Source of the DNA: a virus
Direction: 5' to 3' (one strand)
Length of the DNA: 58,619 nt
Virus record (IMG/VR): IMGVR_UViG_3300036900_000065
Coordinates: 1 to 58,619 of that record
Shown here: piece after piece, positions 1,374 to 58,619 of the stretch
Numbering within the stretch: position 1 is the first letter of the stretch
How the letters are laid out: each line of letters starts with the position of its first letter
Made by a program: the position numbers and the translations under genes
Notes under the pieces: model-generated
What the model was told of the DNA's origin: nothing
The model's input: the letters and a program-made list of their open reading frames with translations, nothing else
Database searches by the model: none

Positions 1374-1567
1374 GCGCGTTCGCCGTCTTTCTGCTCGCGC
1401 TGGCGTTCCTGTTCGTCATGCTGATCCGCTGGGCGTCACAGAGCATCCCGCGCGCCATCATCTTCGTCGCCCTTCTGTGCGCCTCGCCCTACGCGCTCGC
1501 TGTCGGCCTCGGGGTGCTGGCCGCAATCGAGGAAAGTCAACAGCACAAGGTGATGAGCAGGCGATGA
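1370..1567 (+). CDS. Small membrane protein, two predicted segments
   Basis: This 65-residue protein is almost entirely hydrophobic. Residues 2-20 and about 27-52 look like membrane-spanning segments, separated by a short polar RWASQSIPR turn and followed by a polar tail. It overlaps its neighbours by ATGA junctions on both sides. No family is recognised; a role at the inner membrane is the only inference. Confidence 0.6.
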   Translation: MSAFAVFLLALAFLFVMLIRWASQSIPRAIIFVALLCASPYALAVGLGVLAAIEESQQHKVMSRR

Positions 1568-2508
1568 AGATCATCAAGTGGAACGGGCAACCGATCAGCA
1601 AGGCGGGGTGGTATTCGGGCATCCCGCTTGAAGCCTATCATTCGGCGGGCGTCTGCGCGGGGCCTGCGGTGTCCTCGTCCGACCTGCGCACCTGCTGGTC
1701 GAAGTCCCCGGCGCACATGTACTCGAAGTGGGCCGAGAACCCGCGCCGCGAGGAGCAGGCGTCAACCCGCTCGATGGTGCTTGGCGGGGCCGCGCATCAC
1801 CTGTTTCTCGGCGAGGACGGCTTCAAGCTCAAGTTCATCGCCCAGCCGCCGACCTATCGCGACAAGGTGACGGCGGAGGAGAAGCCTTGGCACAACGGCG
1901 CAGGCTACTGCAAAAAGTGGAACGAGGGGCAGGCGGAGGCGGGCCGCATCATCGTCACCCTGAAGGAGCTCGACATCATCAAGCGCATGGCCGCGTCCCT
2001 GACCCTCGATCCGATGGTGCAGAACGGCATCTTGTACGGCGCGGTCGAATGCTCCGGGTTCTGGCAGGACAAGGAGACGGGCTTGTGGATCAAGGTGCGG
2101 CCCGATGTCATCCCGCCGACCGCAGGCGACTACGTGGACTTGAAGACGGCCTCGGAAGTCACCACCCCGGCGTTGCAGTACACGATCCGCTCATACGGCT
2201 ACCAGCAGCAGGGCGGCTTGGTGTGGGAGGCCGCCGAGACGCTGCGGCCCGACGTGCCCTTCGAGACATTCGTGCTGGTGTTCATCGAGACCGCGCCGCC
2301 CTATTGCGCCCGCTCGGTGCCGCTCGCAGCGGATGATCTGGCGCGGGGCCGCTTGATGAACCGCGCCATGCTGCGGCGGGTCAAGTCCTGCATCGAGGCG
2401 CGCCATTGGCCGGGGCCGGGAGAGGACGACCACAGCGAGATGCCGATCAGCAACGATGAGCGGGCGCGGATCGACGCCCGCCTCAAGGTCGAGGGGGTGC
2501 TGCAATGA
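1564..2508 (+). CDS. RecE-like exonuclease (PD-(D/E)XK fold)
   Basis: This 314-residue protein carries the hallmarks of the RecE/exonuclease VIII C-terminal nuclease family: an early YHS...SSSDLR block, SPAHMYSKW, an LGGAAHHLFLG motif, then RPDVI...YVDLKTA, where Asp and Lys fit the metal-binding D...D-x-K core, and a downstream YGYQQQGGLVWEA helix. It would resect double-stranded ends to give 3' single strands for the RecT-like protein two genes downstream, a standard phage recombination pair. It overlaps the preceding and following genes by ATGA junctions. The start at 1564 is fixed by that overlap; the frame is open further upstream without a better signal. Confidence 0.82.
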   Translation: MKIIKWNGQPISKAGWYSGIPLEAYHSAGVCAGPAVSSSDLRTCWSKSPAHMYSKWAENPRREEQASTRSMVLGGAAHHLFLGEDGFKLKFIAQPPTYRDKVTAEEKPWHNGAGYCKKWNEGQAEAGRIIVTLKELDIIKRMAASLTLDPMVQNGILYGAVECSGFWQDKETGLWIKVRPDVIPPTAGDYVDLKTASEVTTPALQYTIRSYGYQQQGGLVWEAAETLRPDVPFETFVLVFIETAPPYCARSVPLAADDLARGRLMNRAMLRRVKSCIEARHWPGPGEDDHSEMPISNDERARIDARLKVEGVLQ

Positions 2509-3014
2509 GGGCGAAGCGGGGCGCGAACCCACGGCACTGGACGCCGCTGCAATTGCTGCCGCGCGAGCAGACCACCCGCCGCCCGGAGATCGTCGCCGAG
2601 ACGATGCGGCACTATGCCATCGGCGAGGACGAGGCGAAGGCGATGCTCGATCAGGAGGAGGCCAAGTGCCTCTTTTTCATCAACAATCTTTATCAGGTGT
2701 CGATGAGCCGCACGTTCGTCGATTGGTTCGGGGCTGAGAAGGACATCGTGCAACTCTGCATCCGCCGCCGCGACGGCGCGATGGTGTGGGATTGGCGGCA
2801 TTTCCAGCAGATCAAGAACGAACTGTGCGGCGAGGAATGCGAGGGCCTGCAATTGTTCCCCGCCGAGAGCCGCAAGGTCGATCAGGCGAACAAATGGCAC
2901 ATCTGGATCGTCGCGGACGGGACGCGAATGCCCTTCGGTTGGCGGGAGCGCGATGTGAAGGACGCGGACCCAGCCATGCAGCACGTCCCCGGATTGAGGC
3001 AGCGCCCGCTATGA
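2505..3014 (+). CDS. Conserved phage protein of the RecE/RecT operon
   Basis: This 169-residue protein contains NNLYQVSM, WDWRHFQQIKNELCGEE, LFPAESRKVDQANKWHIW and MPFGWRERDV blocks. The middle part resembles a small conserved phage family (I recall it as DUF7694, without certainty) often found beside recombination genes. Its role is unknown. ATGA overlaps on both sides place it firmly in the operon. Confidence 0.65.
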   Translation: MRAKRGANPRHWTPLQLLPREQTTRRPEIVAETMRHYAIGEDEAKAMLDQEEAKCLFFINNLYQVSMSRTFVDWFGAEKDIVQLCIRRRDGAMVWDWRHFQQIKNELCGEECEGLQLFPAESRKVDQANKWHIWIVADGTRMPFGWRERDVKDADPAMQHVPGLRQRPL

Positions 3015-3388
3015 CCAAGCGCACCACCGCCGGGGACCGGTTCATCGGCAATCGCATCCGCGAGGCCCGCATCGCCAACGGGCAGTCGATGAAAGACCTC
3101 GCGGAACTGCTCGGCTGCTCATGGCAGCAGGTGCAGAAATACGAGGTCGGGTTCAATCGCGTGAACGGCGCGCGCTTCGATCTGCTCGTCACCGCGCTGC
3201 GCCGCCCGATGTCCTACTTTTTCCCCAACGCCACCGACGTTCGCTTCCATGCGGACCCCGCGCTCGACGCCATGATGGCGACCAAGGACGGGCAGGATTT
3301 GGCGCGGGCCTTTGCGCGCATCCCGGCGCAGCCAGACCGGCGGTTGGTGCGTGATCTCGCGATGCGTCTGGCGAAGGAGCGAGCGTGA
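3011..3388 (+). CDS. XRE/Cro-type helix-turn-helix regulator
   Basis: This 125-residue protein has an XRE helix-turn-helix at about residues 11-60: RFIGNRIREARIANGQSMKDL, then AELLGCSWQQVQKYEVGFNRV, then a further helix. A C-terminal helical region follows, with an LDAMMATKDGQDLARAFARI stretch resembling the tails of short repressors. It probably binds DNA to regulate early phage or host genes. It is embedded in the recombination operon by ATGA overlaps, so it is co-expressed with RecE/RecT rather than standing as a lone immunity gene. Confidence 0.8.
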   Translation: MTKRTTAGDRFIGNRIREARIANGQSMKDLAELLGCSWQQVQKYEVGFNRVNGARFDLLVTALRRPMSYFFPNATDVRFHADPALDAMMATKDGQDLARAFARIPAQPDRRLVRDLAMRLAKERA

Positions 3389-4410
3389 TGGTGAATGTGA
3401 ACGAAGTCGAACAGCGCACCGATCTGGTGAAGGCGTCGGCCATCGAAGTGGGGACGACCCTCGGCGGCGTCCTCGTATCCACGGTGGCCGATCTGGCGAA
3501 GATCAGCGATACGCTGTCGCGGGGCAAGATCGCGGTGCCCGCGCACTGCCGCAACGAGCCGGGGGTGTGCTTCGCCTTGGCGATGCAGGCGCTCGAATGG
3601 GGCCTGCCGATCATGTCGGTCATCACCAAGTCCTATCTGCCGCGCAATGCCGACCGCCTCGGATACGAGAGCCAGTTGATCCACGCGGTGATCGAGAAGA
3701 ACGCGCCGCTCAAGAACCGCCTGCGCTACGAGATCATCGGGGAGGGCGACGAGCGCCGCTGCAAGGTGTCGGGGACGTTCCGGGGCGAGGACAAGCCGCA
3801 TGAATACACCAGCGAGACGCTGGCGAAGATGCACCCCGGCCATGTCACCAAGACCATTGATGGCGAGCAGCGCAAGTTCGTGCGGGGATCGCAACTGTGG
3901 GACGACACCCCGGAGGTGCAGATGTTCTATTCGGCCTCGCGGACATGGGCGCGGCTGTTCGCCCCGGATGTGCTGCTCGGGGCCTACACGCCCGATGAGA
4001 TCGAGAAGATGGAGCCGGTCGATGTGACGCCGATCACGTCGCTGGCGAACCGATTGCGTGACGCCAAGATGGCGCACGCGGGTGAAGGCCGGGGGTTCGA
4101 CGCCGCGCATATCGCGCAGGCCGGGGCCTCGGTGATCGAAGGCGAGGCGCAAAGCCCTGCCGACAAGGAGGCGAGTGATGACGGAGAGCAGCGCGGTGTC
4201 GATGTCGCTGACGGTGACGGACGGGCAGCCCAGCCTGAAGATCGAGGCGATGACCCTCACGACGAGGGGCGAGGCGGACAGGCTGTCGGAGCAGGTGAAA
4301 CAGTACGGGGCGCACCTGCCGGTGCGGCTGTACGCGACGAAGGCCAAGCCGAAGGCGAAGGCCAGCAACCGGCCCGCCCCGCGCCCAAGCCTCGCCCGCG
4401 CCGCAAGTGA
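3388..4410 (+). CDS. RecT-like single-strand annealing protein
   Basis: This 340-residue protein matches the RecT recombinase pattern in its first 220 residues: GKIAVPAHCRNEPGVCFALA, MQALEWGLPIM, RLGYESQLIHAVI, a GTFRGEDKP segment and a very typical TWARLFAPDVLLGAYTPDEI. It would coat and anneal single strands made by the RecE-like nuclease. ATG 3388 overlaps the previous stop; GTG 3385 is an alternative. From about residue 260 the sequence turns into a low-complexity acidic, then basic, tail that overlaps another frame with its own strong ribosome site (4178-4444), so the tail may be a by-product of overlapping coding. Confidence 0.82.
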   Translation: MVNVNEVEQRTDLVKASAIEVGTTLGGVLVSTVADLAKISDTLSRGKIAVPAHCRNEPGVCFALAMQALEWGLPIMSVITKSYLPRNADRLGYESQLIHAVIEKNAPLKNRLRYEIIGEGDERRCKVSGTFRGEDKPHEYTSETLAKMHPGHVTKTIDGEQRKFVRGSQLWDDTPEVQMFYSASRTWARLFAPDVLLGAYTPDEIEKMEPVDVTPITSLANRLRDAKMAHAGEGRGFDAAHIAQAGASVIEGEAQSPADKEASDDGEQRGVDVADGDGRAAQPEDRGDDPHDEGRGGQAVGAGETVRGAPAGAAVRDEGQAEGEGQQPARPAPKPRPRRK

Positions 4411-6458: not shown

Positions 6459-6998
6459 TTAGCGGCGCTGGGGCGTAGGCGTCGGGGCCGAACCGCCCGG
6501 AGCGATGGGATGCGACGGATGCGGCTGACCGGGAGGCAGGCCCTGATCCGGCCCGACCGGATAGGACTTGACCACCCAATCCTGCCCCGGCTTGTGCACC
6601 GCGACGACGACTTGGCTCTCCAATTCCGGCGGCAGCGGCGGGGCGGGCGGCTTGGGCCAGACCTCGGGCGGCACCGGCTGCCCGCCGGGAGGCAACCCCT
6701 GATCGGGATGGCCGGGGCTGGGCCAGATGCCCGGAGGCTGGCTGGGCAGCCCGTGGTCGGGATGGCCGGGATGGTAGATCGGCTGCGACGGATGGCCGCC
6801 GCCGGGAGGCAGGCCCTGATCGGGATAGCTCGGCGCGCCGCCCCAGATGCCCGGAGGGCGACCGCCCGGAGCGATGGGGTGGCCGGGGTGCGGCTGCGGG
6901 CCGGGGCCGCCGATGTCAACATAGGGAGGCGCGCCGCCCCAGATGCCGAGACCGCCGTCATCGAGCAATGTGATTATCGCGAACACGCTTCTTGGCAT
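6459..6998 (-). CDS. Pro/Gly-rich repeat protein (PDQGLPP repeats)
   Basis: This 179-residue protein begins MPRSVFAIITLLDDGG and then consists of degenerate repeats around PDQGLPPG, PPGIWGG and GHPDHGLPSQ. A short non-repetitive segment near residues 124-145 (SQVVVAVHKPGQDWVVKSY) may be a folded strand pair. Proteins of this look are common in alphaproteobacterial phages near lysis or structural genes, with no known function. It is the last gene of the minus-strand virion block. Confidence 0.6.
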   Translation of the reverse strand: MPRSVFAIITLLDDGGLGIWGGAPPYVDIGGPGPQPHPGHPIAPGGRPPGIWGGAPSYPDQGLPPGGGHPSQPIYHPGHPDHGLPSQPPGIWPSPGHPDQGLPPGGQPVPPEVWPKPPAPPLPPELESQVVVAVHKPGQDWVVKSYPVGPDQGLPPGQPHPSHPIAPGGSAPTPTPQRR

Positions 6999-7063: not shown

Positions 7064-7513
7064 TCAGGCGAAGCCATGCCGCGCGCCCTTGGCGTCGATG
7101 GTCATCGCCTGATGGCGCGGCTGGTCGCTCAGGCCAAGATGAACCCAGCCGCGCGGCGGATATTCGTTGATGAGCTGGTCGACGCCCAGCGCCCGCATGT
7201 GCGGCTCAAGCGCCTTGCAGACATCGGGCGGCGCGCCAAAGTCGGGGCAGGCGAAGTCCACCGCGAGGCCGCGCATGTGCGCCGAGTTCTTGGAGCCGCC
7301 GACCGCCTCGTTGACCTTGGGGCCGCGATAGCCGGAAGTGACGAAGATCGGCCTGCCGCCCAGCAGGGCGCGGACCTCCTCCATGACCTCGGCCATGCGC
7401 TGCAGGTTCGCCCGTTCCGGGCTGCCGATCATCGGCACGTTGTCGATGCCGCGCCGCGCCGCCGTCTCGCTGGCGGTCAGTTCCTCAAGGGTGAAGTGTT
7501 CGGTCAGGTGCAT
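7064..7513 (-). CDS. Peptidase M15-type endolysin
   Basis: This 149-residue protein starts at MHLTEHFTLEEL and contains the M15 zinc-peptidase signature: TSGYRGPKVNEAVGG, then SAHMRGLAVDF, giving the His and Asp ligands, and a final WVHLG for the third ligand. It should cleave stem-peptide cross-links of the host cell wall at lysis. Its neighbours are two very small membrane proteins (7570-7686 and 7688-7852), consistent with a lysis cassette. The frame is open upstream of 7513, but that part is low complexity. Confidence 0.85.
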   Translation of the reverse strand: MHLTEHFTLEELTASETAARRGIDNVPMIGSPERANLQRMAEVMEEVRALLGGRPIFVTSGYRGPKVNEAVGGSKNSAHMRGLAVDFACPDFGAPPDVCKALEPHMRALGVDQLINEYPPRGWVHLGLSDQPRHQAMTIDAKGARHGFA

Positions 7514-7687: not shown

Positions 7688-7852
7688 CTACTGCTCGTCG
7701 CGCATGATGAGATAGACGCCCCGCAACACCAGCGCGGACCCCGGCGCGAACAGCGCCAGCCAACCCGCGAAATTGTGGGTCAGCCGCCACAGGAGGAGCG
7801 CGAGCGCGAGCGCGATCAGCCCGTTGGCGATGAAGACGGATGCGCGCTCCAT
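7688..7852 (-). CDS. Small two-segment membrane protein, holin candidate
   Basis: The 54-residue reading (MERASVFIANGLIALALALL onward) has two hydrophobic segments and a short charged C-terminus (YLIMRDEQ). An in-frame ATG at 7903 would add 17 residues; no strong ribosome site favours either. It overlaps the 3' end of the PEP-CTERM gene by at least 37 bases. Holin function is inferred from size, topology and the endolysin next door. Confidence 0.5.
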   Translation of the reverse strand: MERASVFIANGLIALALALLLWRLTHNFAGWLALFAPGSALVLRGVYLIMRDEQ

Positions 7853-8631
7853 CGCCGACCCATCAGGCCCAAGAGGCCAAAGCCAACCAGCATCATCATC
7901 CATGTGCGCGGTTCAGGCACCGGCGGCCCCGCCAGCGTGTTGACGATGGCGGCGTTGGTCCACGACGTGTCGAACGCGGTCACGTTGAGCTTGCCGTTGC
8001 GGCCAATCGACAGGTCAACCGCCAAGGGGGCGATAATCGTGCCCTTGCTGAAGCTGCCGTTGACGGTGAGGAAGTCGGCATCGCTGTCGAACCCGCCTCC
8101 CGGCACGTTGAACAAGGCGTCCTCGACTTGGAAGGTGGTCGGCAGGGCCAATCCCAGCGCCGCATATTCGGCGGCGAAATTGGCGAAGCTGACGCTGGCG
8201 TCGCCAAGCCCGATCTGCTTGCCGAAGTCCTGCCCGGACGCGATGGTCACGTTCACGCCGTCGAACAGGCCGTTGGCGGCGTCGAACTTCTGCGCCGTCG
8301 CCGTCAGGGTCGGGCCGATGGTGAACGCGCCAAGCGGGCCGATCCCGGTCGCGCCCGTGATCGTCGGCAGGACCGCGCCCAAGGGCTGAATGAAATAGAC
8401 GCGGATCGGATCGTCAATCGAGTGGTTGCCAACCTCGGTGATGGTGAAGGTGTCCGCGTCGTTGAGCAGCACCGGATCGCTGCCGGTCGCCGTTGGGCTG
8501 GTGACATGAAACGAGGTCGGATCGCAAATCGTCGTCCCGGTCGCCGGGTCGGTGGCGCAGGCGGTCTGCGCCTTGGCCGCCATTGGCGTCAGCCACAAGG
8601 CGGCGAGGATGAGTTTGGTCAAAAGGTTCAT
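7816..8631 (-). CDS. Secreted PEP-CTERM-type protein 1
   Basis: This 271-residue protein has an N-terminal signal peptide (MNLLTKLILAALWLTPMAAKA, cleavage after AKA) and a C-terminal sorting tail: PVPEPRTWMMM, a hydrophobic stretch (LVGFGLLGLMG), then RRW. That is the PEPxxW variant of the PEP-CTERM signal, in which a host exosortase processes and anchors or releases the protein. The body looks beta-rich with many Thr, Ser and Asp, as in secreted surface proteins. It sits between tail-fibre genes and the lysis cassette, next to a second such gene. Such tails are a bacterial, largely sphingomonad, feature and unusual on phage proteins. Confidence 0.8.
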   Translation of the reverse strand: MNLLTKLILAALWLTPMAAKAQTACATDPATGTTICDPTSFHVTSPTATGSDPVLLNDADTFTITEVGNHSIDDPIRVYFIQPLGAVLPTITGATGIGPLGAFTIGPTLTATAQKFDAANGLFDGVNVTIASGQDFGKQIGLGDASVSFANFAAEYAALGLALPTTFQVEDALFNVPGGGFDSDADFLTVNGSFSKGTIIAPLAVDLSIGRNGKLNVTAFDTSWTNAAIVNTLAGPPVPEPRTWMMMLVGFGLLGLMGRRWSAHPSSSPTG

Positions 8632-8724
8632 TTGTTCTTGCCCGCAAATTGTGGGGAGGGGGCGCGTGCGTCCGACCCCCTCCCTCCGCATTCGCCAAGA
8701 GGGACGCCTTGGCTCCTGCGATCC

Positions 8725-9447
8725 CTACGCAATCGTCGCGAGGCGGTCCTTGCGGCTGCGCCTGAGGCCCATGAACGCCATCAGCGCGAAGCCGACGCCA
8801 AGCATCGCCCACGTCTTCGGTTCCGGCACCCCGGTGGTCATCGACTGATTGAAGCCGGTGATCGAGCCGCCGCCGCGCAGCGCCAAGCTCGCGCCCTCGG
8901 TCATCGAGAACGGCGAGCCGCTGACGAACGCCGCGCTGTTGCTGCCCGAGAAGCTGTCCGGGTCGGTGAGCGGCGTACCGAACACCGTTTCCAGCAAGGA
9001 GCCGGGGGTGTTGCTCGGATTTGCGCCCTGCGTGTTCGCCGGATCGGCCCAGAACTGCAACATGCTCTGTCCGGAGCCGACCGCATCGTTGAAGGTCAGC
9101 GAGGCCGAGTTGTTGATGAAGCTGACCGGCGCGTCGAAATTGGTGTCGGACGCGAGCAGCTTGACGGTGATCGGCGTTGCCCCCTCGTTGGTGATCGAGG
9201 ACGAGGAGAGTTGGAGGGTGTTGGCCGCGCCGAAGGTGGACTGCGCCAAGGTGATCTGCACAAAGGCGTTGCCGATCGTCTGGTCGATGGTCAGAAGGTT
9301 GTTGGCCCCGCCGCTCACGTCGCACGACAATTGCCCGTCGAAGCAGGTGAAGGTGCTGGCCCCGACGCCAATCGACAATTGCAGGCGAGCCTCGGCGGCG
9401 GGCGTCAGCGCGGCAAGGAAGGTGGATGCGAGAAGCAGCTTTTTCAT
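8725..9447 (-). CDS. Secreted PEP-CTERM-type protein 2
   Basis: This 240-residue protein begins with a signal peptide (MKKLLLASTFLAALTPAAEA) and ends with GVPEPKTWAMLGVG, a hydrophobic stretch and RRSRK, the complete tripartite PEP-CTERM tail. The body is Ser/Thr/Asn-rich with alternating beta-type sequence and two cysteines. It shares architecture but little obvious sequence with the neighbouring PEP-CTERM protein. It is predicted to be exported and handled by the host exosortase; what it does at the cell surface is unknown. Confidence 0.8.
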   Translation of the reverse strand: MKKLLLASTFLAALTPAAEARLQLSIGVGASTFTCFDGQLSCDVSGGANNLLTIDQTIGNAFVQITLAQSTFGAANTLQLSSSSITNEGATPITVKLLASDTNFDAPVSFINNSASLTFNDAVGSGQSMLQFWADPANTQGANPSNTPGSLLETVFGTPLTDPDSFSGSNSAAFVSGSPFSMTEGASLALRGGGSITGFNQSMTTGVPEPKTWAMLGVGFALMAFMGLRRSRKDRLATIA

Positions 9448-9515
9448 TGTGGCGTGTTCCCCAATAGGACCGCGAATGCGGGCGGCGCACATTACAGGAT
9501 GTTAATGACAATTGT

Positions 9516-9740
9516 CTATCGGCTCGGCGGGCAATTCTGGGCGTCACGCACCAGTTTTTCGATCAGCGCCATCTGCCCCTTGTTGCGCTCCTGCGCGTTG
9601 GCCGCGACCTCGCCCAAGACATAGCCTGCGAAGGCGAGGAACCCGATGTTAACGACCAAGAGCGCGATGGCGAGCGGCTGCGACGACATCGCGCCGACCG
9701 TCGCCGTCGCGACCTTCCCGGCTTCTTCTTGGATCGACAT
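9516..9740 (-). CDS. Small single-pass membrane protein near tail fibres
   Basis: This 74-residue protein has a soluble N-terminus (MSIQEEAGKVATATVGAMSS), one membrane segment (about residues 23-44) and a charged tail ending DAQNCPPSR. Proteins of this layout occur near the tail genes of alphaproteobacterial phages. Whether it helps lysis or DNA entry is unknown. The start is chosen for protein-like sequence; the frame extends upstream. Confidence 0.55.
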   Translation of the reverse strand: MSIQEEAGKVATATVGAMSSQPLAIALLVVNIGFLAFAGYVLGEVAANAQERNKGQMALIEKLVRDAQNCPPSR

Positions 9741-9840
9741 CTGCGTTGGACCCCATGGCCCCGCCTCGCAGGCGCGCGGCAATCCGCCGCGCCGCCTCCC
9801 GCATAGCACGCCGCCGCGCCTCGCAGGACCGGCAGACCAT
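9649..9840 (-). CDS. Possible small CxxC protein, coupled to the fibre gene
   Basis: A 63-residue frame starts MVCRSCEARRRAMREAARRI, with a CRSC pair and an Arg-rich helix. Its ATG shares bases with the stop of the upstream tail gene (TGATG), which suggests translational coupling. The last 30 residues overlap the neighbouring membrane gene in another frame and look low complexity, so the functional part may be only the first half. Confidence 0.4.
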   Translation of the reverse strand: MVCRSCEARRRAMREAARRIAARLRGGAMGSNADVDPRRSREGRDGDGRRDVVAAARHRALGR

Positions 9841-10484
9841 CAGCGCGCCCGCCTCGCCCACAGCTTGCCGGTCGCGGTGATGGTCCCGCTGGCGAAATTG
9901 AACAGAACATTCAGATAATAGGTCGTCGCCACGGCGACCGACACCCGGCACGGCCCGACCGGCGCGACCGACAAGGTGGACGCCGATGCGGCGAATTGCG
10001 AGCGCGAACCGCTCATGTCCACGGCTGCCAGCCCCGCTCCATCGGTGGTCCCTATGGACAGCCAGAAGGACGTGACAAGGCCTCCCGCCGACGCGCTCGT
10101 CCACACCTCGGCCTGAACGTCCCAATCGCCGGGGGTGAGGACGAGCGAAAGAATGCGCGCTATTGACGAAGTCGCGAGGCTATAGGGCGCGGTGCGCACG
10201 TTGGACAGAACTTCCCCGATATGGCCCGCCGCCGCATCGGCCCCGCTGGTGACGCCGAACGGCGCTTCCGCATATTGCTTGGTCGCCGCGCCAAGCGCGT
10301 TCGCCGGGTCGCCCGCGAGGATCAAGGGGCCGGTGAGCGTGCCCCCGCCCAGCGGCAGATAGCCGGTCTTCGCCAGCGCGACGGATGTCCATTTCTCGCC
10401 ATCCCACACATAGGTCGGCACGCCCGCGACCGGCGCGGACGGGAACTTGTCGCCAAGGGCGGGCGCATTGGGAAAATCAAGCAT
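9840..10484 (-). CDS. Tail fibre/baseplate-associated protein
   Basis: This 214-residue protein begins MLDFPNAPALGDKF and has a YVWDGEKW motif near residue 25, typical of small phage tail proteins carried with fibres. A GYLPLGGGTLTGPLILAGDP segment matches a linker also found in the collagen-like fibre (GYLPLDGGRVTGPVTFAG). The C-terminal half looks like a beta-sandwich and may bind receptor. It overlaps the preceding fibre gene by eight bases. Confidence 0.6.
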   Translation of the reverse strand: MLDFPNAPALGDKFPSAPVAGVPTYVWDGEKWTSVALAKTGYLPLGGGTLTGPLILAGDPANALGAATKQYAEAPFGVTSGADAAAGHIGEVLSNVRTAPYSLATSSIARILSLVLTPGDWDVQAEVWTSASAGGLVTSFWLSIGTTDGAGLAAVDMSGSRSQFAASASTLSVAPVGPCRVSVAVATTYYLNVLFNFASGTITATGKLWARRAR

Positions 10485-12129
10485 TGGCCGCCTCCAGCCG
10501 CGCCGTCAGCTCCGCGACCTGACCGTCGAGATGCTTGACCGCGTTGGCCAGCGCCGCGATCAGCGGCATGAGCTCAATCGCGGGCTGGTCGCCGCCGCGC
10601 ACCGCATGGGGCAACGCCTCCTGCATTTCCTGCGCGACGAAGCCCAGTTCCTCGCGCGGCTCGACCGCCCATCCGGGGTGATCGGCGGGCGGCTCCGGGT
10701 TGACCCGCTGATAGCGGCGAGGGCGCATCAGCCGCACCGCCTCGATCCCGTCCGGCGCGTCCTGAATGTCGGCCTTGAGCGCCGCGTCCGAGTTCTGCGC
10801 CAGCGTGCCCTTGATGGTGAGGTTGCCGCCGCCGACCAGAGACATCAGGATGGCGTCCGTGTAGTCCTGCCATGTGCGCGCTCCACTGGACCGCTGGAAC
10901 ATGTACTTCCACGACGAGGCCGTGGCGCTGCCCTGCTCGCCGATGCCGAAATAATTGCCGTCGCTGTAAAACGAGCTGGCGTTGGTGAGGGTGATGCCCT
11001 GTCCAGACATGGTGTTAATGGCGCCGCCGAACGTCGCGGCCCCGGTGCCGCGCGCGATCTGCATCGCCGCCGGGTTAATCAGCGCGCCGCTGTCGTCGTA
11101 ACGCTGGATATAAAAATCCGACCCGGCGTTCGCCCCCGTCTCGGCGGCGGAATTGCCAAGCGTCACCCGCCAGCGCAGCGCGCCGCCCGTCATGCCCGCA
11201 AGGCCCCGGTTGACGCTGCCCGCCCCGTCGAGCGCCACGGTATAGCCGAACGCCCCGCTGCCGGAGGTCCCGGCGAACGTCACGGGGCCGGTCACACGCC
11301 CCCCATCGAGCGGCAGATAGCCGGAAAGGTCGGGCTGCGGGGTCGCAATCACCCATTGCGTCGAAGTGCCGTCGTTGTAGCGCGCATAGAGAAGGCCGGT
11401 GTCGCTCTCGAACCAGAGCGCGCCGTCCGCCGCGCCCGCAGGCGGCGTGTCGGACACCAGCAGGGTCGCGGTGCCCGCCGCGCCCTGAGGGCCGGTGTCG
11501 CCCTTGTCGCCCTTCGGTCCCTGCACGCCCTGCACGCCCTGCGGCCCTTGCGCCCCTTGCGGCCCGACCAGCGACACGCCCCCCGGCCATGCGCTGCCCG
11601 CCTTCGGGCCGAAGATGAAATGGGTCGTGGTGTTGATGTAGAAGTCGCCGTCCTTGCCCTGCGCCGTAGGGTCCGATGGGCCATAGAGGACGGTGTTCCC
11701 GTCCACGCCGTCCGTGCCTCTCGGCCCCGGCGGCCCCTGCAGGCCGATGGGCCCCTGCACGCCTTGGACGCCCTGCGCCCCCTGCGGCCCGATCAGCGAC
11801 GCCCCGGCTGGCCAGACGCCGCTCAGCTTCGGGCCGAACATGAAATGCGTGGTGGTGTTGACATAGAAGTCGCCGTTGACGCCGACCGCGTTCAGCGGAT
11901 CGCTCGCGCCATACAGCACCGAATTGCCGCGCGGCCCCGCAGGGCCGGTGTCGCCGGGAGGTCCGGGGACGATGGACGCGGGGCCGGGAGGTCCGGGAGG
12001 TCCGGGAGGCCCCTGCTGCATCGTCTGGATGATCTCGACCTCATCGTCGAAGATCACGATGGTGCTGTCGTCGCTCGACGCGGCGCTCACGTTGTCCGAA
12101 TTGTCGATGTCAACTTCGTTGAAGGTCAT
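10477..12129 (-). CDS. Collagen-like tail fibre with S74 chaperone domain
   Basis: This 550-residue protein has four parts. Residues 1-38 are an acidic N-terminus, probably for baseplate attachment. Residues about 40-220 combine Gly-x-y collagen runs with two copies of a module around VLYGxSDP...GDFYxNTTTHFxFGPK. Residues about 250-440 form a beta-rich shaft. The last 105 residues (NSDAALKADIQDAPDGIEAV, RRYQRVNPE, EELGFVAQEMQEALP, then a coiled coil) match the peptidase S74 intramolecular chaperone, which trimerises the fibre and cuts itself off. It is likely a host-recognition fibre. Confidence 0.85.
   Translation of the reverse strand: MTFNEVDIDNSDNVSAASSDDSTIVIFDDEVEIIQTMQQGPPGPPGPPGPASIVPGPPGDTGPAGPRGNSVLYGASDPLNAVGVNGDFYVNTTTHFMFGPKLSGVWPAGASLIGPQGAQGVQGVQGPIGLQGPPGPRGTDGVDGNTVLYGPSDPTAQGKDGDFYINTTTHFIFGPKAGSAWPGGVSLVGPQGAQGPQGVQGVQGPKGDKGDTGPQGAAGTATLLVSDTPPAGAADGALWFESDTGLLYARYNDGTSTQWVIATPQPDLSGYLPLDGGRVTGPVTFAGTSGSGAFGYTVALDGAGSVNRGLAGMTGGALRWRVTLGNSAAETGANAGSDFYIQRYDDSGALINPAAMQIARGTGAATFGGAINTMSGQGITLTNASSFYSDGNYFGIGEQGSATASSWKYMFQRSSGARTWQDYTDAILMSLVGGGNLTIKGTLAQNSDAALKADIQDAPDGIEAVRLMRPRRYQRVNPEPPADHPGWAVEPREELGFVAQEMQEALPHAVRGGDQPAIELMPLIAALANAVKHLDGQVAELTARLEAANA
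11473..11925 (-). repeat. Duplicated module plus collagen run in the tail fibre
   Basis: Residues about 69-143 and 144-219 of the fibre are a tandem duplication: each copy has N-S/T-VLYG-x-SDP, GDFY-V/I-NTTTHF, FGPK and SL-I/V-GPQGAQG, then a collagen-like stretch. Divergence shows the duplication is not recent. Confidence 0.8.
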
Positions 12130-35963: not shown

Positions 35964-37001
35964 ATGCCTCTCACTTTCGGCACCGAGTTCGAATGCTTCA
36001 TCCCGCAAGGGACGACGCAGGCGATGCTCGCCGCCGCCATCAACGCTCGCCTTATCGCCCCGGCGACCTGCGCGGTGGAAGGATACAACCACAACGCCCG
36101 CCCTCATTGGAAGATCGTAACCGATGGCTCGCTGGGCGACTATTCGCGCGGGGTTGAGATCGTCTCCCCGATCCTCGAAGGCGAGGAAGGCATTGCGCAG
36201 ATGCGCCTTGTTTGCGAGGCCCTGACCGATTTCGGTTGCACGGTCAACCAGAGCGCGGGCTTCCACGTTCATGTAGGCGCGCGCGGCGAGGGCCTCGGCT
36301 TCTTCAAGAAGCTGGTGCGCCTTTACCAGACCTATGAGCGGGTGATCGACGGCATGATGCCGGTGTCTCGCCGCGCCTCGTCAAACACCTATTGCCGCTC
36401 GCTGGCGGGCGCAGCGCCTTCCGCGATCAGCGCCGCCCTCTCGGTTGGCGATCTGGCGCGCGTACTCACCCACGCCAGCCGCGCGATGGCCGACCGCTAC
36501 CACAAGGTCAACATCACCGCCTATTCGCGCCACTCGACGGTCGAGTTCCGGCAGCATTCGGGAACGGTCGATGCGACCAAGGCGGAGAACTGGGTGCGCC
36601 TTTGCCTCAAGATGGTCGAGACCGCCAAGCGGCCCGACGTGATCTTCGAGACGGCGACCGGCGCGGCCCCGCGCAACACGGCCCGCTATGGCTCGAAGCG
36701 CCACGCCATCATCGAGATGATTATGCGCGAGAACGGCGCGACCCGTACCGAGATCGTAGCAGCCACCAATTGGCCCTCGGTCTCGATTGCGCAGATTGCG
36801 GCCTCCTCGGGCCTCAACATTCTCACGACCCGCACGGGCCGCGAGACACGCTACTCGCTCAATGCGGTGGCGACCACCCCCACCCACCACGACGTTTCGG
36901 TGGATGGGTTCTGCACCTTGATCGGTGCGACCGATGCGGAGCGCGCCTACGTGCAGCGGCGCACCGCGAACCTCGGCGGCCCCGTAGCTTGGACCGCCTA
37001 A
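35964..37001 (+). CDS. Amidoligase-family protein with C-terminal winged helix
   Basis: This 345-residue protein matches the amidoligase (glutamine-synthetase-fold COOH-NH2 ligase) family. Residues 5-12 are FGTEFECF; HWKIVTDGSLGDYSRGVEIV follows, then SPILEGEEGI, NQSAGFHVHVGARGEG (99-110), YHKVNITAYSRHSTVEFRQH (about 179-198) and SGT. These are the metal, ATP and substrate blocks. Residues about 248-305 look like a winged helix (IIEMIMRENGATRTEIVAAT). The family is predicted to form peptide-like amide bonds. Two gamma-glutamylcyclotransferase-like genes follow on the same strand. GGAGCAAGC precedes the start. Confidence 0.82.
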   Translation: MPLTFGTEFECFIPQGTTQAMLAAAINARLIAPATCAVEGYNHNARPHWKIVTDGSLGDYSRGVEIVSPILEGEEGIAQMRLVCEALTDFGCTVNQSAGFHVHVGARGEGLGFFKKLVRLYQTYERVIDGMMPVSRRASSNTYCRSLAGAAPSAISAALSVGDLARVLTHASRAMADRYHKVNITAYSRHSTVEFRQHSGTVDATKAENWVRLCLKMVETAKRPDVIFETATGAAPRNTARYGSKRHAIIEMIMRENGATRTEIVAATNWPSVSIAQIAASSGLNILTTRTGRETRYSLNAVATTPTHHDVSVDGFCTLIGATDAERAYVQRRTANLGGPVAWTA

Positions 37002-37019
37002 TTGAGAAGGATGGATGCA

Positions 37020-37229
37020 ATGCGACACGAAGATAAGACGATGACGACGACCCCGGATCAATCGCTCGTAACATGGCGCGCGACGATGGGGTTCAATCAG
37101 CGCGAGGCGGCGGAAGCCTTGGGATGCTCCCCCGCCGATCTGGCCGATTGGGAGCGCGGCGCGGCCACCACGCCCCGCTTCATCAGGCTGGCGATGGCCG
37201 CGCTCGCTCTCGGCATCGAGGCCGAATGA
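37020..37229 (+). CDS. Small XRE-type helix-turn-helix protein
   Basis: This 69-residue protein contains a compact helix-turn-helix: LVTWRATMGFNQREAAEALG, CSPADLADWERGAATTPRF. It is likely a DNA-binding regulator of neighbouring genes. GAGAAGG upstream makes ATG 37020 a reasonable start; TTG 37002 and ATG 37011 are in frame. Confidence 0.65.
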   Translation: MRHEDKTMTTTPDQSLVTWRATMGFNQREAAEALGCSPADLADWERGAATTPRFIRLAMAALALGIEAE

Positions 37230-37239
37230 CCGCCCTACG

Positions 37240-37264
37240 CCCCGGAGGTCGCAAGCCTTCGGGG
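37240..37264 (+). other. Intergenic stem-loop
   Basis: CCCCGGAGG pairs with CCTTCGGGG (one wobble) over a seven-base loop between the small regulator and the first cyclotransferase-like gene. It is followed by GAGGGGTCAGAAGG, a string repeated almost exactly after the next intergenic stem-loop (37949 on). No T tract. Confidence 0.45.
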
Positions 37265-37288
37265 TCGAGGGGTCAGAAGGAGCAAGCC

Positions 37289-37918
37289 ATGTCACTTTAT
37301 TTCGCCTACGGATCGAACTTGAGCAAGGTGCAGATGCACTGCCGCTGCCCCGATGCGGTGCCGGTCGGATCGCTCACCCTCGAAGACTGGACGCTGGTGT
37401 TCCGCGCGGTGGCCGACATCGCGCCGTCGCCGGGAGACACCGTGCAGGGCGCGGTCTGGAAACTCTCGCCATCCGACGAGGCCAACCTCGACCAGTACGA
37501 GGGGGTGCGGAGCGGGATGTACCGCAAGGTCTATATTCCCATCGAGCCTTATGACTTCGCCGGGGATCATCACGAGGACATGCTGGTCTACGTGATGAAC
37601 TCGACCGGCATCATGCCGCCGACCATCTCCTACCTGCGCACGATCCGGGACGGCTATCGCGACTTCTCCCTGCCGATGGCCGCGCTCGACGATGCGGTGG
37701 AGCGATCCCACGATAACAAGGCCCCATCGCATGTCGAGCGGCAGCGCCGGATGCGGTCTGGCCGACTGCCGCTGGCCGCGCGGCCCAGCGCGATCCGGGC
37801 CGCGCAGGAAGCCGCCGCCAAGGCGGAGCGCGAGAAGAAGGCTCGCCCCCTGAGCAAGAAGGCCAAGCGGCGCGCCAAGGCGAAGGCCAAGGCCCGACGC
37901 GGGATTGGTTCGTACTGA
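37289..37918 (+). CDS. Gamma-glutamylcyclotransferase-like protein 1
   Basis: This 209-residue protein opens MSLYFAYGSNLSK, the AIG2/GGCT nucleotide-free substrate loop (YGSNL, 7-11), with GAVWKLSPSDEANLDQYEGV placing the catalytic Glu at residue 71, then MYRKVYIPIE. GGCT-fold enzymes release 5-oxoproline from gamma-glutamyl amines or peptides. After about residue 150 it has a long Lys/Arg/Ala-rich tail that may bind nucleic acid. It follows the amidoligase on the same strand, suggesting action on the same linkage type. Confidence 0.8.
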   Translation: MSLYFAYGSNLSKVQMHCRCPDAVPVGSLTLEDWTLVFRAVADIAPSPGDTVQGAVWKLSPSDEANLDQYEGVRSGMYRKVYIPIEPYDFAGDHHEDMLVYVMNSTGIMPPTISYLRTIRDGYRDFSLPMAALDDAVERSHDNKAPSHVERQRRMRSGRLPLAARPSAIRAAQEAAAKAEREKKARPLSKKAKRRAKAKAKARRGIGSY

Positions 37919-37928
37919 CGCCCCCGAC

Positions 37929-37948
37929 GCCCCGCCATCGCGCGGGGC
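37929..37948 (+). other. Intergenic stem-loop
   Basis: GCCCCGC pairs perfectly with GCGGGGC over a six-base loop, followed by GAGGGGTCAGAAGG. It stands between the two cyclotransferase-like genes and matches the arrangement at 37240. Confidence 0.45.
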
Positions 37949-38000
37949 TGAGGGGTCAGAAGGGGCCGCTGATCGACCCCGCAAATCAGGAGCAAGGCGG

Positions 38001-38381
38001 ATGAAAATTTTCGTGTACGGAACCCTGCAGCGGGGACGCCGCAACCACCGCATCCTTGAGGCCGCGACGTTCATCGGCAGGGCGGTGACGGTGCGCAGGT
38101 TCGGGATGACCGACGTGGGCTTCCCGTTCATGCTGCCGTGGCAGGAGATCGCGCGCGTAGCTGGCGAGCTATTCGACATCGGCGACGACGCCGACATTCT
38201 CGCGGCGCTCGACCGCCTCGAAGGCGAAGGCCGGATGTACGACCGCGTGCAAGGCTTCGTTGAATGCAAAGGCCGACGCCATCTCGCGAGCTTCTATGTG
38301 AAGCGCCCGACCGGAAGGCCAGCGGGCCGCGAGGTGCCGGTCAACGAGCGCGGCCTCTTGGAATGGAGGGCCGCATCATGA
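38001..38381 (+). CDS. Gamma-glutamylcyclotransferase-like protein 2
   Basis: This 126-residue protein is a compact GGCT/AIG2 domain: MKIFVYGTLQRGRRN, a VAGELFDIGDDADILAALDR segment and LEGEGRMYDRV with catalytic Glu near residue 74, then LASFYVKRP. It differs from the first cyclotransferase-like protein (YGTL rather than YGSNL, no basic tail), so the pair may have distinct substrates. GGAGCAAG precedes the start, and the stop overlaps the next gene's ATG. Confidence 0.8.
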   Translation: MKIFVYGTLQRGRRNHRILEAATFIGRAVTVRRFGMTDVGFPFMLPWQEIARVAGELFDIGDDADILAALDRLEGEGRMYDRVQGFVECKGRRHLASFYVKRPTGRPAGREVPVNERGLLEWRAAS

Positions 38382-44565: not shown

Positions 44566-45351
44566 TCACCGCCGCTCGGGAGGGTGTCCCGCCGCTGCCT
44601 GCTTCCCACGCGCAATCGGTTCGCCCTTATACATTCCGGCCCCGCGCGCCGCAATTTCCGAGAACGGAACCTCGGGCACGGCGAGGCGGGCGCGCGCCGC
44701 CGGATTGAGGAAATAGATATAGCGCAGCATGAACCCCGGCAACGGCTCGCCCGCACTCGACCACAGGCCGCCGTTCTTCGAGAAATGGGCGAAGCGATCC
44801 TTGCCCGTGACTTGCGACATCTTGTGCCCGATGGTGCCGTCCGCGAAGCGCAGCACGTCCTTGTTGACCTTGATCTTCGTCAGGACGAAGCCCGACGCCC
44901 GATAGATCGTGCCGTCGCCGCACTGGCAGGCGTCCGCGAACGACACCACCCACTCGATGTGCGGATACGCCTTGCGGATCATCCTGAGCGCGATCCCCAA
45001 GGCGCGGCTCTCCGAATTGCGCGGCAGCACGTCCGAGAACGCCATCCGGTTTAATTCGAGAAAGGCGTTCCAGCCGGTGTCGCGCACCAGACCGACCACG
45101 TTCGACTTGTCGAGCGACGGGCCGAACTGCATGGCCCCCTCAAGCCGCCCGTTCAGGAACACGCCCAGCGACAATTGCGAGTTGCGCACGAACTTGCCCG
45201 AATAGTGGATGCGCCGCACCAAGGCGTCCGCATCGCGCTTCTCGATGGGCGCGATGCGGATGTCCTTCGCGGCGGCGGGCCGGACGCTTGCAGTCGCCCC
45301 TACAGTTTGAAGCACGTCGGTTCGTGCTGGCCCATTGGTCATTGCGCTCAC
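44566..45351 (-). CDS. Mom-like DNA adenine modification protein
   Basis: This 261-residue protein closely follows the phage Mom-family pattern: RIHYSGKFVRNSQLSLGVFL, LEGAMQFGPSLDKSNVVGLV, AFLELNRMAFSDVLPRNSES, RALGIALRMIRKAYPHIEWV and SFADACQCGDGTIYRASGFV. Mu Mom is an acetyltransferase-fold protein that adds a carbamoylmethyl group to adenine and blocks restriction. The start is GTG 45351 (GTGA overlap with the preceding stop), or ATG 45342. No partner Com-like gene is obvious. Confidence 0.8.
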   Translation of the reverse strand: MSAMTNGPARTDVLQTVGATASVRPAAAKDIRIAPIEKRDADALVRRIHYSGKFVRNSQLSLGVFLNGRLEGAMQFGPSLDKSNVVGLVRDTGWNAFLELNRMAFSDVLPRNSESRALGIALRMIRKAYPHIEWVVSFADACQCGDGTIYRASGFVLTKIKVNKDVLRFADGTIGHKMSQVTGKDRFAHFSKNGGLWSSAGEPLPGFMLRYIYFLNPAARARLAVPEVPFSEIAARGAGMYKGEPIARGKQAAAGHPPERR

Positions 45352-58306: not shown

Positions 58307-58619
58307 ATGAGAACCGGACTGACCCTGACCCAATTGGCCGTCGAGATCGAGCGACGGGCCAAGGCGAAAGATGACTTCGTCGTCTCGACCAGAGACATCG
58401 AGATGATCGAGAGCCTCGACCTTGTGATCGCAGGTGGGGACAAAGTGGTGGGGATCAACAAGATCGCCCACGATCAGATCGCATCGCACACTGAAATTCC
58501 CCGCGCCTATTACAACCGGATGCTCGCCGACGATCCGCGCCTCTTGGCGGCGAACGTCAATACATGGTTCCGCAAGAACCCGGTCCCGCGCATGGTGCGC
58601 TGTCTCGACAACACCGCCC
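58307..58619 (+). CDS. DUF932-family protein, 5' part
   Basis: The true start of the gene continued at position 3: MRTGLTLTQLAVEIERRAKA then into the shared sequence. GGAGCAAGC (58296-58304) precedes ATG 58307. The part from 58374 duplicates the start of the window. Confidence 0.8.
   Translation, partial: MRTGLTLTQLAVEIERRAKAKDDFVVSTRDIEMIESLDLVIAGGDKVVGINKIAHDQIASHTEIPRAYYNRMLADDPRLLAANVNTWFRKNPVPRMVRCLDNTA
58374..58619. repeat. Terminal direct repeat, right copy
   Basis: Identical to 1-246 except T at 58492 (C at 119), silent. See the left copy. Confidence 0.95.

Follow-up and report, generated by a model that had tools for sequence, protein, structure and literature searches.

Phage-encoded PEP-CTERM proteins as probable mobile cargo for sorting by a host exosortase

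The DNA analyzed here, called the window, is the whole of IMG/VR virus record IMGVR_UViG_3300036900_000065 (58,619 bases). The ends of the window repeat each other directly over 246 bases with one mismatch (positions 1-246 and 58374-58619), and therefore the genome is probably complete. No integrase above the cut-off was found in the window. The genes of interest lie on the minus strand in the order tail fiber, fiber-related protein, 74-aa transmembrane (TM) protein, A, B, M, and M15 endolysin, with the following features:

10477-12129, minus strand: collagen-like/S74 tail fiber
9840-10484, minus strand: fiber-related protein
9516-9740, minus strand: 74-aa TM protein
9491-9518, minus strand: weak candidate sigma-70-type promoter upstream of A (TAGACA-16-TGTAAT), predicted from sequence only
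8725-9447, minus strand: gene A, PEP-CTERM protein of 240 aa with 57 viral relatives
9388-9447, minus strand: predicted A signal peptide, aa 1-20, ending in AEA before R (read from sequence)
8830-9387, minus strand: A ectodomain, aa 21-206 (AlphaFold2, alignment, dN/dS)
8743-8826, minus strand: A PEP-CTERM tail with PEP and W, TM helix, and basic cluster (PF07589, TIGR02595)
7816-8631, minus strand: gene B, second PEP-CTERM protein of 271 aa, with relatives beside A-family genes
8569-8631, minus strand: predicted B signal peptide, aa 1-21, ending in AKA before Q (read from sequence)
7840-7917, minus strand: B PEP-CTERM tail (PF07589, aa 237-260)
7688-7852, minus strand: M, 54-aa protein with two TM segments, its start overlapping the end of B
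7064-7513, minus strand: M15 endolysin adjoining the cassette (PF08291, phrog_894)

Genes A and B were also called by an independent codon-usage gene call. As a preliminary description of this DNA had stated, they lie between fiber and lysis genes, with the collagen/S74 fiber on one side and the M15 endolysin on the other. There was no significant excess of promoters in the set of regions upstream of A-family genes, and no terminator was found in the window. A Gly/Pro-rich low-complexity protein is encoded at 6459-6998 (minus strand); similar proteins directly adjoin A in four other loci (L003, L020, L022, and L043), and others like it occur near a PEP-CTERM tail in several more, matches that may be inflated by composition bias.

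Three further regions of the window drew attention. The gene at 44566-45351 (minus strand) strongly matches the Mom protein family (PF25680, E 9e-54), which suggests a Mu-like modification of the phage DNA. Next to the terminase, 35964-38381 (plus strand) contains an Amidoligase_2 gene followed by two gamma-glutamyl cyclotransferase (GGACT/AIG2-like) genes, possibly a cassette for peptide ligation and cleavage. A PD-(D/E)XK DUF3799 protein and a RecT-family protein, encoded at 1564-4410 (plus strand), are likely to form a phage recombination module.

The tails of the two proteins are VPEPKTWAMLGVGFALMAFMGLRRSRKDR (A) and VPEPRTWMMMLVGFGLLGLMGRRW (B). The preliminary description had proposed that both carry complete PEP-CTERM sorting signals and are exported, and had named a profile search as the check. 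Both passed Pfam PF07589 (22.2 bits for A and 26.5 bits for B, relative to a gathering score of 20.7), and a signal peptide can be read at the N terminus of each. With TIGR02595 (cut-off 16), A passed at 21.7 and B was just under at 14.7, and with the PEPxxWA model NF035944 (cut-off 35), both were just under (25.3 and 32.7). The scores of 28.1 and 25.2 with the FxDxF model NF038126 (cut-off 50) came mostly from the tail, and so the proteins are not members of that family, although it is the closest NCBIfam subfamily by score. When the tail residues were shuffled, a tripartite tail arose in only 1 (A) and 3 (B) of 300,000 trials, and among the 90 proteins called in the window, no other has one. 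The basic cluster of B is minimal (GRRW...H), and the match between the A and B profiles is confined to the tail. No Cys is found at the predicted cleavage site of either protein (between AEA and RLQ in A, and between AKA and QTAC in B), where a lipobox would have one. Searches of Pfam, NCBIfam, and PHROGs found no enzymatic domain in A or B, and neither protein had a PHROG match.

The preliminary description had called for a survey of related phages, and conservation proved far wider than its author could have known: two scans of viral contigs found A encoded by 57 further contigs, giving 58 members with that of the window. Identity to the ectodomain of the window's A ranges from 45 to 90%. 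By a hydropathy rule, a signal peptide is present in all 56 members with a complete start, and 53 of the 54 members with a complete C terminus end in the pattern PE[P/A/T]-x-x-[W/L], hydrophobic stretch, and basic residues; in the exception (L024), the reading frame is altered at the tail. Within the tail, P1, E2, G12, and W/L6 are each 100% conserved, with basic residues after the helix, and most ectodomains retain a Cys pair (C35, C42). The pairwise dN/dS of the ectodomains was 0.06-0.20, indicating strong purifying selection, and the tail has accumulated far more amino-acid changes than the ectodomain while nonetheless retaining its pattern. Therefore, selection acts on both the ectodomain and the tail type. 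One clade of the family (L019 9950-10657, L044 7206-7922, and L046 4616-5332) has tails of the form PEPA/F-x-L..GLGLLG..RRR rather than PEPxTWAM, which may suit another exosortase class or another host. Such PEPA-x-L..GLGLLG..RRR tails presumably resemble those of bacteria outside the alphaproteobacteria; searches with the capsid and tail proteins of these three contigs did not settle the host.

Outside viral contigs, a peptide-pattern scan of genome contigs from 84,980 species yielded no relative of A, 289 alphaproteobacterial genomes gave tail-level matches only, and no relative was found among plasmids or cultured phages. Three narrower searches, of 1, 18, and 26 genomes, were also empty, these being small samples. 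Because the bacterial searches consisted of peptide patterns and a sample of genomes, rare bacterial homologs may exist, and as far as checked, family A has been found only in phages. A peptide-pattern scan for B gave no match, although relatives of B were later found beside A.

Most of the A-bearing contigs have little else in common with the window, and their GC content ranges from 38 to 66%. Positions of A include the terminase-portal gap, the end of the late operon downstream of the replication helicase, the interior of the head module, and sites by an integrase or near fiber and endolysin genes. When these slots, assigned by hand, were mapped on a maximum-likelihood tree of the A ectodomains, at least 11 slot changes were counted, and two contigs with ectodomains 95% identical (L041 and L050) carry A in different slots. 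Among cultured phages, Ochrobactrum phage vB_OspP_OH (MT028492, Wolominvirus) is closest to several of the A-bearing phages, which it resembles in helicase (43%), portal (40%), and gene order. It differs in that both slots used for A by these relatives are empty: the terminase directly abuts the portal, and no gene follows the helicase. The corresponding slots are occupied by A and a second PEP-CTERM gene after the helicase in G010 and G021, and by A between terminase and portal in G390. Among 40 contigs with a large terminase subunit (TerL) close to that of the window, 39 had no PF07589 match above the cut-off, and the protein of the remaining one, the nearest relative (G025), is unrelated to A. 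An integrase above the cut-off was found in 9 of the 41 A-bearing records, so A is carried by temperate and integrase-less phages alike. The empty slots, the rarity of PEP-CTERM matches in TerL relatives, and the integrase count indicate that A is optional cargo; it is absent from a conserved locus in relatives and present in unrelated phages, which is one mark of a moron. Relatives by TerL encode other PEP-CTERM-like proteins, unrelated to A or B (L139 691-1611, L140 748-1608, and L141 249-1629), with tails of the VPELSTWGMM, VPEVSTWAMM, and P-x-PAA-x-WLF types.

These neighborhoods also bear on when the genes are expressed. The position of A and B, from which late expression was suggested previously, is compatible with it in this phage. 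In other phages, A may instead adjoin an integrase or come after an early helicase, and 7 of 31 A genes run on the strand opposite to both neighbors; thus, location is an inconstant clue to timing. A spanin or holin role for A and B was considered and rejected, because A is outside the lysis modules in other phages.

The slots are not reserved for A. A DNA pattern for PEPxTWAM matched at least 120 stretches in viral contigs, some of which may be host flanks; among the matches listed, 82 were read (79 loci), and 77 were true C-terminal tails, belonging to A, A-like proteins, family E (10 members, near FxDxF), family F (8 members), and others. Family E scores 46 relative to the NF038126 cut-off of 50, and families F and A-like reach 39-41 on NF035944, above its cut-off of 35. 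Members of E or F occupy A-type slots next to an integrase (L192, L209), at the terminase and portal (L220, L239), after a helicase (L238), and near an endolysin (L211). Unrelated PEP-CTERM families (E, F, and A-like) fill the same slots in related phages. A B-type gene lies directly downstream of an A-family gene in four contigs (L023, L025, L040, and L186), and PEP-CTERM genes of two further types adjoin A in five (C- and D-type genes in L009, L026, L029, L010, and L021). Since only the sorting tail is common to the slot-filling genes, surface display is likely to be their common function.

Relatives of M, recognized by the motif N-G-hydrophobic-WRLTGsFxGW..PG, sit at the end of PEP-CTERM genes and often overlap the stop codon. 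A direct scan found M at 11 viral loci, in 10 of which the end of a PEP-CTERM gene and the start of the M match lie no more than about 60 bp apart; in the 11th, a contig-truncated A is about 380 bp away. Seven of these loci are contigs that had been used for the query, and the other four (two distinct sequences) all fit the arrangement. M may act as a membrane partner of the sorted protein, or it may be a holin in this phage.

The preliminary description had proposed that the two proteins rely on an exosortase of the host, and in agreement with this, no exosortase gene was found in the 41 A-bearing records, the window included. The sorting of A and B would therefore depend on the host. Of the 289 alphaproteobacterial genomes, 34 encode an exosortase and 36 a PEP-CTERM protein, and 23 have both, compared to about 4 expected by chance. 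The TerL of the window is closest to those of Bradyrhizobium prophages (76-80%), with further matches in prophages of other Rhizobiales. Because the TerL match is limited to the head and packaging module, we regard Rhizobiales-type hosts, to which the related phages point, as a lead rather than an assignment. An exosortase was absent from 18 of 21 tested genomes related by TerL, a possible reason for the usual absence of the cassette from those phages. A sphingomonad host, inferred earlier from the PEPxxW form of the tail, is neither supported nor excluded, as several alphaproteobacteria have such tails and the packaging genes most resemble those of Bradyrhizobium prophages.

The A ectodomain was predicted by AlphaFold2 to be an all-β sandwich (mean pLDDT 79), whereas the model of B was poor (pLDDT 56). 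Foldseek matches of A were generic β-sandwiches at a weak TM of about 0.3, among them CBM6, CBM22, CBM61, Eph ligand-binding domains, and phage tail domains, and a sequence search of the PDB gave nothing significant. The fold matches of the model are thus only a hint of a binding role. That the ectodomain is so strongly conserved suggests that its target is conserved too.

In the model proposed for bacterial PEP-CTERM proteins, the protein is held by its helix, cleaved by exosortase, and passed outward (PMC1569441). By the same route, the host Sec system would carry A and B across the inner membrane, where the C-terminal hydrophobic helix would hold them, after which the host exosortase would read the PEP motif and remove the tail, and the cleaved proteins would be passed to the cell surface or the exopolysaccharide layer. 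The cassette of A, an exchangeable second PEP-CTERM protein, and often M moves between unrelated phages as a moron. The benefit would most probably lie in a remodeled surface of the infected cell, chiefly one whose receptor or glycan is masked or altered, so that neither other phages nor the progeny of the phage itself can adsorb there. We give this account as a whole, mobile phage cargo that is exported by Sec, sorted by the host exosortase, and remodels the infected-cell surface, a probability of roughly two in three. Processing of A and B by an exosortase, judged from their tails, appears likely. That the proteins block superinfection or readsorption, which we infer by analogy, is the benefit that we favor, though only tentatively, and strong ectodomain conservation, not usually a property of an arms-race receptor blocker, counts against it. 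Also weighing against the account are the absence of exosortase from most genomes related by TerL, the 39 of 40 TerL relatives that have no PEP-CTERM match above the cut-off, and the generic nature of the fold matches. Somewhat more doubtful still is the proposal that A, the exchangeable PEP-CTERM protein, and a coupled M make up a modular envelope-conversion system with display by the host exosortase and superinfection exclusion.

The main alternative, which we consider unlikely but worth serious weight, is that A and B serve to bind or loosen the exopolysaccharide matrix or floc of the host instead of affecting phage adsorption, thereby aiding progeny release, spread, or biofilm retention. 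Bacterial PEP-CTERM proteins have been linked to exopolysaccharide (PMC1569441) and to floc formation (PMC9012009), carbohydrate-binding modules (CBM6, CBM22, and CBM61) are among the fold matches of A, and the genes adjoin the endolysin in this phage; against this, those fold matches are weak, the domain databases revealed nothing enzymatic, and the endolysin-adjacent position is not general among A-bearing phages. A distinctly less probable explanation leaves exosortase uninvolved and makes the tail a membrane anchor only, with A and B acting in the periplasm, for example in blocking entry or timing lysis. A signal peptide, a TM helix, and a basic stop would be sufficient for this, and two small TM genes, M among them, lie nearby. 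However, PEP and W, which an anchor does not need, persist in 53 of 54 members despite drift in the helix, and the same type of tail is found on several unrelated phage ectodomains.

The remaining explanations have little probability. If A and B were exosortase decoys, abundant phage substrates that saturate the enzyme and stop the maturation of host surface proteins, the interchange of unrelated ectodomains in one slot would be explained, but the strong purifying selection on the A ectodomain would not. It is at least as improbable that they are virion proteins decorating the fibers: they follow the tail-fiber genes on the same strand in this phage, and phage tail domains are among the Foldseek matches, but virions assemble in the cytoplasm, from which Sec signal peptides would export A and B, other phages carry A next to integrase, helicase, or terminase genes, and PHROG matches are lacking. 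Least probable is that PEP-CTERM genes are chance bacterial passengers or mis-binned host DNA with no role in the phage. The closeness of family E to bacterial FxDxF proteins and the possible host flanks in the pattern survey speak for it; the purifying selection on A, its presence in many contigs within modules for the head, replication, or lysis, the lack of relatives in the 84,980-species scan, plasmids, and cultured phages, and the finding of tail-level matches only in the 289 alphaproteobacterial genomes speak against it.

Returning to sorting by the host exosortase, A and B share with the PEP-CTERM/exosortase (EpsH) proteins of bacteria (Haft et al. 2006, PMC1569441) the signal peptide, PEP motif, TM helix, and basic cluster. 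They differ in being encoded by phages that have no exosortase, in the location of A inside phage modules, and in an A ectodomain family that was not found in the bacterial genomes searched. A sigma-54 motif has been described for bacterial PEP-CTERM genes (PMC1569441), and it was found upstream of A in 0 of 54 cases. By proposed function, A and B may be likened to T5 Llp (PMC9586334) and Rtp45 (PMC12685063), small exported phage lipoproteins that stop adsorption by binding outer-membrane receptors; unlike these, A and B are larger and β-rich, lack a lipobox, and end in an exosortase tail. The earlier statement that no phage PEP-CTERM protein has been characterized held in the open-access literature searched. 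PEP-CTERM proteins and phage morons are both known; as far as checked, their combination and the phage-specific family A are new.

These results suggest that phages commonly recruit the exosortase of the host for coating or altering the infected cell's surface. Little is understood of the natural role of PEP-CTERM/exosortase systems, and phage-specific, selected, and mobile exosortase substrates would show viral exploitation of this sorting route. With 58 members, empty slots, and a conserved tail, family A is defined well enough for direct testing, and it would offer a compact native substrate for testing exosortase sorting. Family A would also suggest a new way for soil phages to alter the infected-cell surface, and if true, exosortase-based envelope conversion would constitute a previously undescribed class of phage-host interaction.
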